39,095 bases of DNA, taken from contig JAHWJI010000011.1 in the NCBI GenBank assembly GCA_019348495.1, forward strand, positions 1-39,095. Direction: 5' to 3'. How positions within the stretch are numbered: position 1 is the first letter of the stretch; each line of letters starts with the position of its first letter. This document shows positions 20,656 to 24,778 of the stretch, piece after piece. The DNA is from Actinomycetota bacterium (GTDB lineage: Bacteria; Actinomycetota; Acidimicrobiia; Acidimicrobiales; CADCSY01). A program made the translations under genes and the position numbers. A model generated the notes under the pieces. That model had not been told where the DNA came from, did not search any database, and saw only the letters and a program-made list of their open reading frames with translations.

Positions 20656-21138
20656 TCAGATCCGGCAGGTCGAGAGCCCCCGCTTCTCCAGGTACTGCTG
20701 GTGGTAGTCCTCGGCGGGCCAGAAGGTCGACGCCGGCGTGACCTCGGTGACGATGGCACGCCCGAAGCGTCCTGACGCCTCCAGCTCCTCGATCGAGCGC
20801 TGGGCGGCCTTCTGCTGGGCCTCGTCGTGGAAGTAGACGGCCGAGCGGTACTGGGTGCCCACGTCGGGACCCTGGCGGTTCAAGGTGGTGGGGTCGTGGT
20901 TGTCCCAGAACACCGACAGGAGGTCGTCGTAGGAGAGCCGCTCGGGGTCATAGGTCACCTGGACCACCTCGGCGTGGCCCGTGCGCCCGGTGCAGACCCG
21001 GCGGTACGTCGGCTCGTCCTTGGTGCCGCCCATGTAGCCCACGGCGGTGGCCACCACGCCGGGAACCTGGCGGTAGGCGGCCTCGATCCCCCAGAAGCAC
21101 CCGGCCCCGAACGTCGCTACCTCTTGCGCCATCGTCAT
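20656..21138 (-). CDS. msrA: Peptide methionine sulfoxide reductase A
   Basis: ATFGAGCFWGIEAAYRQVPGVVATAVGYMGG, FWDNHDPTTLNRQGPDVGTQYRSAVYFH. Confidence 0.97.
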   Translation of the reverse strand: MTMAQEVATFGAGCFWGIEAAYRQVPGVVATAVGYMGGTKDEPTYRRVCTGRTGHAEVVQVTYDPERLSYDDLLSVFWDNHDPTTLNRQGPDVGTQYRSAVYFHDEAQQKAAQRSIEELEASGRFGRAIVTEVTPASTFWPAEDYHQQYLEKRGLSTCRI

Positions 21139-21380
21139 CCACCCTCTCCGCCCGTTGGTCTGCCTGTCTCGAAGCTACGGGGCCGCTGGTCGTACTGGAT
21201 GTAGCGGGCCACCTGGGCGGCCCGCTCGGTGCTGTGCAGGCGGGCCACCAGGTGCAGGGCCATGTCGATGCCGGCCGAGACCCCGGCGGCGGTGACCACT
21301 TGGCCGTCGTCGACGAAACGGTCCTCGGGCCGGAGCTCGATGCGCTCTCCGAGCACCACGGCTATGGCCGGCCCGCTCAC
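21135..21380 (-). pseudogene. DJ-1/PfpI-family C-terminal fragment (about 81 aa)
   Basis: VSGPAIAVVLGERIELRPEDRFVDDGQVVTAAGVSAGIDMALHLVARLHSTERAAQVARYIQYDQRP...; nucleophile-elbow half missing. GTG overlaps the upstream stop, and its TGA overlaps the msrA ATG. Confidence 0.7.
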
Positions 21381-22810
21381 GTGGGGGAGAGAGGGCCGAA
21401 CTGGCCCTCGGTGGGCTCCGCTCAACAGAACCAGGGCTCGGTGAGGCGCGGCCTGCCCTGGGTCGAGCCGGCGGCGATGAGCTCCCCCTCGCCGGGATCG
21501 GCGGCGCCGGCGGCGCCCGGATCGGCGGCCTGGCGCACGGCCCGGCTGACGGCCAGGTACAGGCTGGCGGCCGGCTCGCCGGCATCGAGGCCGGCCTGCA
21601 CCTGCTCGGCCAGCTGGGCCTGGAGCTCGTCGACGCGCCGATCCGCCGCCGTCCAGGAGTAGCTGAGGCGCTCGGCGTCGTAGGACCCGAGGTGGGGGGC
21701 CATGTCGGGGTGGTCGACCAGCAGCGAGCCTTCGGGCACCAGCAGGCGGATGGTGTACTGCACGGGGTCGACGTTGGCGATGAGGTCGTGGGCAGCGACG
21801 AAGTCGACGAGGTCGACCAGGTCGGCGGGCGTGGTCCAGGGGGTGAAGGGCAGGAACGACGGCCGCACCTCGATGTTGTGGTCGCGGAGCACCCCGATGG
21901 CCTCGGCCGCCTGGGCGGCGGTGTGGCCCTTGTCCAGGCGGGCCAGGATGGCGTCGTTGACCGACTCCAGGGCCGAGACGACGAACAGGCAGCCAGCGGC
22001 GGCCATCGAGCCCCAGAGGCCACGGTGGCGCAGGATGAGCTCCACCTTGGTGGTGCAGTCGAAGGTGAGCTCGGGAAAGCGCTCGTGCATGGCCGCCACC
22101 ACCCGTCGGGAGTGGTGGACGCCGTTGAGGAAGTCGGGGTCGGCGAAGGTGATGTGGCGGGCGCCGGCCGCCACCAGTTGGGCGATGTCGGCCACGACCA
22201 CCTCGGGGCCCACCACCCGGATGCGCCCGTCGTAGACCGTGGGCACCGGGCAGTGCCGGCACCGGGAGGCGCAGCCGTGGCTGGCCTCCACCGCGCCGAC
22301 CAGGCGCTCCTCGCCGTCCACGGCGAGGTGGGCGTAGCGCTCGAGAGGCGGCAGCAGGTCGCGGGCGGGGACGTCGAAGTCGCTGCGCCCCAGGTGCACG
22401 ATCGGGCGGGTGTCGGCGGCCGGCGCCGGGCTCGCCGCGCCCCGGGCCGGGAGCCCGTCCACCCAGGCCAGCAGGGCGGGCTCGTACTCGCCGGCGATGA
22501 CCCGGTCGGCCACCGCCCGCAGGGTGGCGTCGGCGCTGACGGCGGCGTAGAGGCCGTAGAAGCACACGGGCAGCTCCGGGCGCTGGTGGCGTGCGGCGGT
22601 GGCCGCGGCCAGGGCCAGGCGCATGGCCGTGTGCATGGGCACCGAGAAGGCGACGGCGCTCGCCCACGCCACCAGCTCGGGGTCCCAGGGCTGGACCGAC
22701 AGGTCGAGGGCGGCCACGTCGTGGCCCCGGCGGCGAAGGGCGGCGGCGGGCGAGGCCACGTGCACCGGCTGGTGCCCGAGCTCGTAGGTCGAGACCAACA
22801 GCACCCGCAC
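21377..22810 (-). CDS. B12-binding-domain radical SAM protein with CUAEP tail; predicted selenoprotein (Sec at TGA 21424..21422, 477 aa)
   Basis: SHGCASRCRHCPVP (CxxxCxxC) and an N-terminal cobalamin-binding-like domain. The minus-strand codons at the end read GAG CCC TGG TTC TGT TGA GCG GAG CCC ACC GAG GGC CAG TTC GGC CCT CTC TCC CCC ACG TGA. Confidence 0.85.
21391..21409 (-). promoter_or_regulatory. Putative bacterial SECIS hairpin
   Basis: mRNA GAGGGCC-AGUUC-GGCCCUC: perfect 7-bp stem, 5-nt loop with G at loop position 2; stem begins 12 nt and loop begins 19 nt after the UGA. Confidence 0.75.
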
Positions 22811-22850: not shown

Positions 22851-24077
22851 TCAGGAGGCTTCGATGACCACCTCGAGGTGGGCGTGGGCCCGACGCAGGG
22901 CGTCCTCCACCGCCTCAGGGGTGGGGGCCCGGGCGAAGAGGAAGCCGAGGTAGCGGTCGCCCTCGGGCAGGGCCCGCACGGGGCGCCCCCGGGCGATGGT
23001 CAGCTCCAGGCCCTCGATGCCGGGCACGGCCCGGGCGGACTCGACACCGCCCACCTCGACCAGGCAGCCCGAGCGGGGGATGGGCAGCATCATGACCCCG
23101 GCCGCCTGGTCCTCCCGGCGTAGACCGTCGAGGCCGAGGCCCAGGGCGTGGCGGAGGATGACCTCCTCCAGGGAGATGCCGGCACCGAAGCGCAGCGCCC
23201 GCGAGCACAGCCCCCCGATGGAGCGGGCGGCCACCTCCACCAGGCGGACGCCGTCGGCGCCGATGCGCACCTCGGCGTGCACCGGTCCCTCCACCAGGCC
23301 GAGGGCGGTGGCGCCGGCGGCCACCAGCCCGACCACCGCCTCACGGGTGGGGGCCGGGAGCCGCGAAGGGGTGACGTAGATGGTCTCCTCGAAGTAGGGG
23401 CCGTCGAGGGGGTCGGGCTTGTCGAACACCGCCAGGACCTCGAGCCGCCCGCGGGTGAGCAGGCCCTCGACAGCCACCTCGGGCCCGGCCACGAAGGACT
23501 CCACCAGCACCGGCCCTGTGGGGTCCTGGCCGGCGTCGGCCAGGATGGCCCGCACCCTGGACGCCGCCTCGGCGGCGGCGGCGGGGTCGTCGGCCCGCAT
23601 GACGCCCCGGCTACCCGACAGCGAGACCGGCTTGACCACGCAGGGCAGGCCCACCTCGGTGGCGAGGGCGGCCACGTCGTCGCCGGGTCGGGCCACCCGG
23701 AACGCGGGCTGGTCGACCCCGGCGGCGGCCAACGCCGTGCGGCTGCCCAGCTTGTCGCGCGTGGCGGCCACGGCGGTGGCCGGGTTGTGGGCCAGGCCCA
23801 GGCGCCCGGCGGCCAGGGCGGCGGCCAGCACGCCCTGTTCGTCGACGGCCACCACGGCGTCGACGGGGGACCGGTCGGCGGCGAAGGCGACGATGGCGGC
23901 GGCGGCGGCGTCGGGATGGTCGAGGGGCAGCACCAGGGCACGGTCCTCCATGGAGACGGCCATGGCCTGGCGATGCTCGGAGGCGACGACCACCTCGACC
24001 CCCAGGGCCGACGCGGCCCGCACGAAGTCGGTCGCCCGGTAGGTTCCGGTGGGCAGGATAAGGAGGACCCGGGGCAC
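22851..24077 (-). CDS. ATP-grasp domain protein
   Basis: GLPCVVKPVSLSGSRGVMRADD, VLVESFVAGPEVAVEGLL, GPVHAEVRIGADGVRLVEVAARSIGG. GTG start at 24077; same strand and directly upstream of the radical SAM gene. Confidence 0.9.
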   Translation of the reverse strand: MPRVLLILPTGTYRATDFVRAASALGVEVVVASEHRQAMAVSMEDRALVLPLDHPDAAAAAIVAFAADRSPVDAVVAVDEQGVLAAALAAGRLGLAHNPATAVAATRDKLGSRTALAAAGVDQPAFRVARPGDDVAALATEVGLPCVVKPVSLSGSRGVMRADDPAAAAEAASRVRAILADAGQDPTGPVLVESFVAGPEVAVEGLLTRGRLEVLAVFDKPDPLDGPYFEETIYVTPSRLPAPTREAVVGLVAAGATALGLVEGPVHAEVRIGADGVRLVEVAARSIGGLCSRALRFGAGISLEEVILRHALGLGLDGLRREDQAAGVMMLPIPRSGCLVEVGGVESARAVPGIEGLELTIARGRPVRALPEGDRYLGFLFARAPTPEAVEDALRRAHAHLEVVIEAS

Positions 24078-24094: not shown

Positions 24095-24778
24095 ATGGCC
24101 GACGCGAGCGCTCCCGAGAACCTCGACCAACAGCCGGGCACGCCCGGCGAGGCGGTGCTGACGGTCACCGACCAGGCCCGCAAGAAGGTGGTGGCCCTGC
24201 GCCAGGGCGAGCCCAACGCCGAGTCGCTGGCCCTGTGGCTGGAGGTGACGGGAGTGGCCGGGTCCGAGTTCACCTACGACTTGTACTTCGACGCCCTCGA
24301 CCGGGCCCAGCCGGGCGACGCCGTGCAGCGCCATGACGACGTATCGGTCGTCATCCCCGCCGCCAGCGTCGACCAGCTCCGGGGGGCCACGCTGGGCGTG
24401 AGTCGCGACCTGCTCAACCCGGGCATGACCGTCACCAACCCCAACCGCCCCCCCCAACCGGCCAGCCCCTCGATCAGCGCCCGCCCGCCGGCCGACCTGA
24501 GCGGGGACGTGGCCCAGCGGGTGGCCCAGGTCATCGAAGCCCAGATCAACCCCAGCATCGCCTCCCACGGCGGCCAGGCCGAGCTGGTGGCGGTCGACGA
24601 CGGCACCGCCTACCTCCGCTTGAGCGGCGGGTGCCAGGGCTGCGGCATGGCCACGGTGACCCTCACCCAGGGCATCGAGGTGGCCATCCGGGAGTCGGTG
24701 CCCGAGATCACCCAGGTCACCGACGTGACCGACCACGCCAGCGGGGCCAACCCCTACTACGAGGCCGCCAAGAAATAA
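24095..24778 (+). CDS. nfuA: NfuA-like Fe-S biogenesis protein (IscA-like domain + NifU C-terminal domain)
   Basis: C-terminal NPSIASHGGQAELVAVDDGTAYLRLSGGCQGCGMATVTLTQGIEVAIRESVPEI (CxxC). Confidence 0.88.
   Translation: MADASAPENLDQQPGTPGEAVLTVTDQARKKVVALRQGEPNAESLALWLEVTGVAGSEFTYDLYFDALDRAQPGDAVQRHDDVSVVIPAASVDQLRGATLGVSRDLLNPGMTVTNPNRPPQPASPSISARPPADLSGDVAQRVAQVIEAQINPSIASHGGQAELVAVDDGTAYLRLSGGCQGCGMATVTLTQGIEVAIRESVPEITQVTDVTDHASGANPYYEAAKK

Follow-up and report, generated by a model that had tools for sequence, protein, structure and literature searches.

Within the window, that is, the whole stretch of 39,095 nucleotides analysed here, a radical SAM gene lies beside the genes for an ATP-grasp ligase and an Nfu-type Fe-S carrier (Table 1). 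The minus-strand frame that encodes the radical SAM protein runs from 22810 to 21422 and reads ...PRLTEPWF-C before it reaches a TGA. This TGA (21424..21422) is preceded by TGT, the codon for Cys462, and is followed in the same frame by GCG GAG CCC ... ACG TGA, which specifies A E P T E G Q F G P L S P T and ends at a second TGA (21379..21377). When the first TGA is translated as selenocysteine (Sec), the product has 477 aa with U463 and carries the tail WF-C-U-AEP. An earlier note on this DNA had given these coordinates, this length and the position of Sec463, all of which are right by translation; it had also pointed to an NCBI family named for a CUAEP/CCAEP tail, which is exactly NF040546, 'CUAEP/CCAEP-tail radical SAM (seleno)protein'. 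The read-through product scores 559.7 bits against this model (cut-off 500), compared with 539.0 bits if the protein is cut at the TGA. Because read-through raises the score, the part after the stop, which is worth 20.7 bits, is itself family sequence. The gene is a full member of NF040546, with the same tail and the same Sec/Cys position. The selenoprotein assignment is NCBI's and predates the present analysis; what is added here is one more member of a family already known.

Table 1. Features of the radical SAM selenoprotein locus (positions are those of the window).
Feature	Position	Strand	Remarks
Radical SAM selenoprotein gene	21377..22810	minus	477 aa, Sec463, GTG start; NF040546, Pfam Radical_SAM and B12-binding domains
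UGA codon for Sec463	21422..21424	minus	in-frame TGA between Cys462 and AEP
Family tail W-F-C-U-A-E-P	21410..21430	minus	W, F, C, C/U, E and P invariant in 71 aligned members
bSECIS hairpin	21391..21409	minus	7 bp, loop AGUUC, 19 nt after UGA; -13.6 kcal/mol; fits published bSECIS constraints
CxxxCxxC motif (Cys180/Cys184/Cys187) for [4Fe-4S] cluster	22250..22273	minus	invariant in 71 aligned members; common to ArsL
B12-binding-like N-terminal domain	22469..22801	minus	PF02310, E 1.4e-9; without DxHxxG cobalamin motif
ATP-grasp ligase gene, L-amino acid ligase type	22851..24077	minus	PF13535 and LAL_C2; directly upstream of radical SAM gene
Nfu-type Fe-S carrier gene	24095..24778	plus	NifU domain; divergent from ligase gene, 17 bp apart

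Only five soft residues of the radical SAM protein (C180, C184, C187, C462 and C/U463) are invariant in the 71 aligned members. The DxHxxG motif is absent from the window protein and occurs as 4 chance matches among 101 relatives; a cobalamin-dependent methylase was rejected because the B12-like domain lacks this motif. Among families with E up to 0.01 there is no match to TIGR04167 or to NF045646 TrsS, which are other radical SAM selenoproteins. Libraries of defence systems and phage families gave zero matches, and a library of viral structures returned general radical SAM folds only. The structure model of the protein has a mean pLDDT of 93.6 and a pTM of 0.93. Values are about 91 for residues 451-460 and fall to about 68, a moderate confidence, for the last seven; residues 464-466 form a short strand, so that the tail seems to rest against the protein rather than float. 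The closest solved folds are AprD4, OxsB, MgmA and TsrM, each of which is a radical SAM enzyme that carries a B12-type domain. The best of these, the radical SAM 1,2-diol dehydratase AprD4 (6fd2; E 3.6e-18, TM about 0.68-0.70), is only 19% identical to the window protein and differs from it in having a sugar substrate and no C-U tail.

The source genome (2.2 Mb in 161 contigs, estimated to be 98% complete) contains the complete machinery for Sec. The tRNA-Sec scores 67.8 bits and is called as tRNA-SeC(tca) by ARAGORN; selA (376 bits) and selB (273 bits) adjoin on one contig, and selD (375 bits) carries an in-frame TGA of its own (FSHGAG-U-ACKL), making it an independent Sec gene in this genome. 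Relatives of the radical SAM gene were gathered from 149 genomes of the same order and from a collection with one genome per species (85,462 species), which together yielded 109 full tails, 101 of them distinct. In these 101 the codon after that for Cys462 is TGA in 34, TGC or TGT in 67, and nothing else. Residue 463 is consequently Cys or Sec in every one, and AEP (or SEP) after this codon is universal. The tail WF-C-x-[A/S]-E-P is found throughout, and 30/30 full-length relatives from the same order keep it in frame. On a tree of 100 rows that was built without the tail, 14 changes between Sec and Cys are reconstructed, of which starred branches force at least 7, whereas shuffled labels need about 28; on this tree the family has thus switched at least 7 times, and probably about 14 times. 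The form of the gene also follows the machinery of its host. Among 30 genomes checked, selA exceeds its cut-off in 7/7 with the UGA form versus 8/23 with the Cys form (Fisher p 0.006), and tRNA-Sec does so in 6/7 (the seventh genome is 87% complete) versus 10/23. Cys forms alone make up one group, drawn mostly from Acidimicrobiaceae, whose tail is WFCCSEP with Ser for Ala (L052, L064, L066-L068, L072, L073, L087, L090, L092).

The window hairpin, when considered alone, does not have a significant folding energy (z -1.31), and therefore a comparative test was used. The bSECIS model is passed by 27/34 Sec genes versus 7/67 Cys genes (p 6e-12), and in a fixed register 6.06 of 7 pairs form in Sec genes versus 2.76 in Cys genes (p 2e-13). 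Among 26 Sec sequences, pairing is seen in 93.4% of cells and double changes were counted 28 times; the covariation is 0.538, compared with 0.227 after shuffling (0/500) and at most 0.162 in slid registers. Because this covarying hairpin is present in the Sec genes and absent from most Cys genes, it belongs to the UGA rather than to the peptide. The contention of the earlier note that the read-through product is more than a chance match has held up: it is borne out by the 20.7 bits, by C-[C/U]-[A/S]-E-P in frame in all relatives, by the Sec machinery and by the hairpin. Neither of the outcomes that the note had named as refuting was observed, since SelA, SelB, SelD and tRNA-Sec are all encoded and the residues after the codon are conserved. 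The 20.7 bits and the universal tail also led us to reject a chance match for the AEP itself. Judged from these sequence signals, the gene almost certainly encodes a selenoprotein, in which SelB bound to the hairpin would bring Sec-tRNA to the UGA and so create a C-terminal Cys462-Sec463 pair. That the UGA is instead an ordinary stop followed by a relic AEP tail, as might be read from the public annotation of a Thermomicrobium roseum relative that ends at the Cys, is barely credible and was rejected, given the invariant C/U column, a SECIS hairpin that covaries and goes with the UGA genes but not with the Cys genes, and the full Sec machinery of the host. This annotation belongs to T. roseum DSM 5159 (NC_011961.1, L129:8935-10407), whose CUAEP-family protein WP_012643191.1 ends ...ESWFC at a TGA that is followed by an in-frame AEP and a hairpin. 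On these features of the sequence, WP_012643191.1 is probably a selenoprotein, here of a named type strain, that was cut short in annotation. In a search that covered the plasmid NC_011961.1 only, selA was not found.

The ligase gene is a probable operon partner of the radical SAM gene; the two run in the same direction and are separated by 40 bases. The best PDB match of the ligase is the L-amino acid ligase BL00235 (3vot), with the ATP-grasp fold aligned over residues 44-403 (E 1.6e-38). BL00235 is a free-standing dipeptide ligase and, in contrast to the window ligase, is not known to pair with a radical SAM enzyme. To assess the pairing, neighbours within 3.5 kb were counted at 42 loci that have at least 3 kb on both sides of the gene, and the family ATP-grasp gene was found at 27/42; its usual place is directly upstream. 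Across the 149 genomes the radical SAM gene is present in 42, the ligase in 43 and both in 41 (p 4e-33, a value that, like the other co-occurrence p-values, overstates independence because the genomes are related). Put differently, the ligase occurs in 41/42 radical SAM-positive genomes versus 2/107 others. Six genomes contain both genes unlinked, and in one of these (G050) the ligase adjoins Nfu instead. In distant phyla the order and orientation of the genes change, yet the set often persists. Since the pairing is kept when the genes are unlinked and is re-formed across phyla, a functional bond can be argued, and there is very little doubt that the radical SAM enzyme and the ATP-grasp ligase share one pathway. 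The joint claim of a selenoprotein and a two-enzyme pathway with the ligase, chemistry apart, is highly probable. Apparent in-frame TGAs in two other ligase genes (G147, G004) and in one DUF169 gene (G125) proved to be ordinary terminal stops.

Two further genes recur at the surveyed loci. Nfu lies within 3.5 kb at 30/42, in orientations that differ across phyla, and DUF169 at 18/42. The DUF169 subfamily (PF02596; e.g. L067:7314-8045) occurs in 19/42 radical SAM genomes versus 2/107 others (p 1e-10, with the same overstatement of independence) and is missing from the window's own genome. It has invariant residues Cys61, His79, Cys82, Cys172 and Cys190; its structure model is confident but matches no solved fold significantly, and no solved relative was found by sequence either. 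MsrA, CarD and a sigma factor were considered as members of the pathway and rejected, since, though close to the gene in the window, they are near it at only 1, 1 and 2 of the 42 loci, respectively.

A clue to the chemistry comes from the family that scores next, ArsL (NF040542; 287.2 bits, below the cut-off of 450). In the biosynthesis of arsinothricin, ArsL forms the C-As bond by transferring the 3-amino-3-carboxypropyl group of SAM (PMC8552651, PMC12159101). The window protein is 34% identical to ArsL over 419 columns, and 55 columns are conserved in both families, including the CxxxCxxC cysteines and the tail CC pair, as judged from three ArsL sequences only. Like ArsL, the protein combines a B12-like domain and a radical SAM domain with a vicinal pair in the tail, where the ArsL CC aligns with Cys462-Sec463, and an ATP-grasp gene is likewise present in the Bacilli ArsL loci examined. 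Unlike ArsL, it has two soft tail residues rather than three Cys (RCCLKC), so that only the CC pair aligns with WFCUAEP; its linker before the tail is longer, and Sec is allowed. Against the same three ArsL sequences there are also fixed differences at M59, H60 and T61 (MHT versus LFD), Y88 (versus H), H186, P225, H296 and other positions. An ArsL orthologue was rejected on the score below cut-off and the wrong tail. Because the tail and the fixed residues differ, the acceptor is probably not As(III) held in the manner of ArsL. The ATP-grasp gene is present in the ArsL plasmid loci of Bacillus cereus, Priestia megaterium and Alicyclobacillus acidocaldarius, and the Alicyclobacillus protein is 25% identical to the window ligase (E 4e-20); its presence in these loci suggests arsinothricin-containing peptides. 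At the ArsL loci outside Burkholderia (L131, L132, L130) the ATP-grasp gene is beside or near a gene for a carboxymuconolactone-decarboxylase-family protein; a CobW-like GTPase is encoded there too, as is, in Bacillus cereus, the ArsD-related protein VcpD.

The kinship with ArsL, the chemistry of ArsL and the ATP-grasp genes in ArsL loci are the grounds for a model of radical transfer followed by ligation. In this model a [4Fe-4S] cluster on Cys180, Cys184 and Cys187 would cleave SAM, by a mode that we infer from ArsL, to a 3-amino-3-carboxypropyl radical and methylthioadenosine. The acceptor would be a soft atom bound by the Cys-Sec tail, namely As, Se, Te, S or a thiol-bound metalloid. Addition of the radical to this atom would create a C-X bond, and the ATP-grasp ligase might then couple the amino acid so formed to a second one. 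Sec may improve binding, reduction or release at the tail; where selenium goes unused, Cys would fill this role. Nfu would probably supply the Fe-S clusters, and in genomes other than that of the source DUF169 might act as an accessory protein. The idea of the earlier note that the tail serves in redox or in metal/sulfur handling is a plausible prediction, within which the kinship with ArsL would favour handling of a soft metalloid or chalcogen. This specific scheme, in which the 3-amino-3-carboxypropyl group passes to a soft atom on the Cys-Sec tail and ligation follows, is tentative. The broader proposal is doubtful: that the radical SAM enzyme and the ligase, with DUF169 and Nfu as optional members, form an undescribed pathway in some ten phyla, in which a C-Se, C-As, C-Te or C-S bond would be made from the 3-amino-3-carboxypropyl group of SAM and the product built into a peptide.

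Three other readings of the chemistry have to be weighed. Sec463 might have a redox role, in which a substrate radical would receive electrons or a hydrogen atom from a Cys462-Sec463 selenenyl-sulfide, much as it does from Cys donors in certain radical SAM epimerases and dehydratases. Such a role would fit the invariance of the vicinal C-U pair, the nature of the closest solved fold (AprD4, a diol dehydratase of the radical SAM type that has a B12-like domain), and the general view of selenoproteins as mostly redox-active (PMC13188914). It is nevertheless unlikely, as ArsL, whose SAM cleavage and group transfer are of a different kind, is by far the closest relative in sequence (287 bits versus 32 for AprD4), and the paired ligase suggests an amino-acid product. 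In another scheme, which is improbable, the Cys-Sec tail would coordinate a second metal or Fe-S site that is loaded by Nfu and either binds substrate or is consumed, as in lipoyl synthase. The frequency of Nfu near the gene in varied orientations across phyla speaks for such a site, as does the ability of NfuA to restore the cluster of lipoyl synthase; however, five invariant soft residues are too few for a conventional second cluster, and Nfu can equally serve the radical SAM cluster. Quite improbable is an arsenic enzyme that, like ArsL, makes an organoarsenical amino acid. ArsL is indeed a sister family with an aligned tail CC, but the score reaches only 287 of the 450 bits, there is no RCCLKC tail, and in a survey of neighbours that used no arsenic models, no arsenic gene was seen to recur.

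The near-obligate ligase and the kinship with ArsL turn an enzyme without an assigned function into a testable two-enzyme pathway, and the co-occurrence of the ligase points to one that is small and biosynthetic. The natural swaps between Sec and Cys could serve directly for studying the role of selenium in a radical enzyme. A gene caller that ends the protein at the UGA drops the one defining residue of the enzyme, and a public record of the T. roseum relative ends there too. No paper naming the CUAEP/CCAEP family was found in the literature searched, and a 2026 inventory of 119 prokaryotic selenoprotein families omits it (PMC13188914). The same literature was not found to contain the covariation of the SECIS hairpin, the number of Sec/Cys switches or the links to the ligase, to DUF169 and to ArsL, and the earlier note is silent on the hairpin, the ligase and the kinship with ArsL.

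Two other frames lie downstream of the selenoprotein gene on the minus strand. The gene for methionine sulfoxide reductase A (20656-21138) is just downstream and is not conserved at this position elsewhere. An 81-aa frame (21135-21380), whose GTG start overlaps the final TGA of the radical SAM gene, was not found at the other loci surveyed; it resembles ThiJ/PfpI (DJ-1 type) proteins over their C-terminal part alone (residues about 140-195) and is probably a gene remnant.
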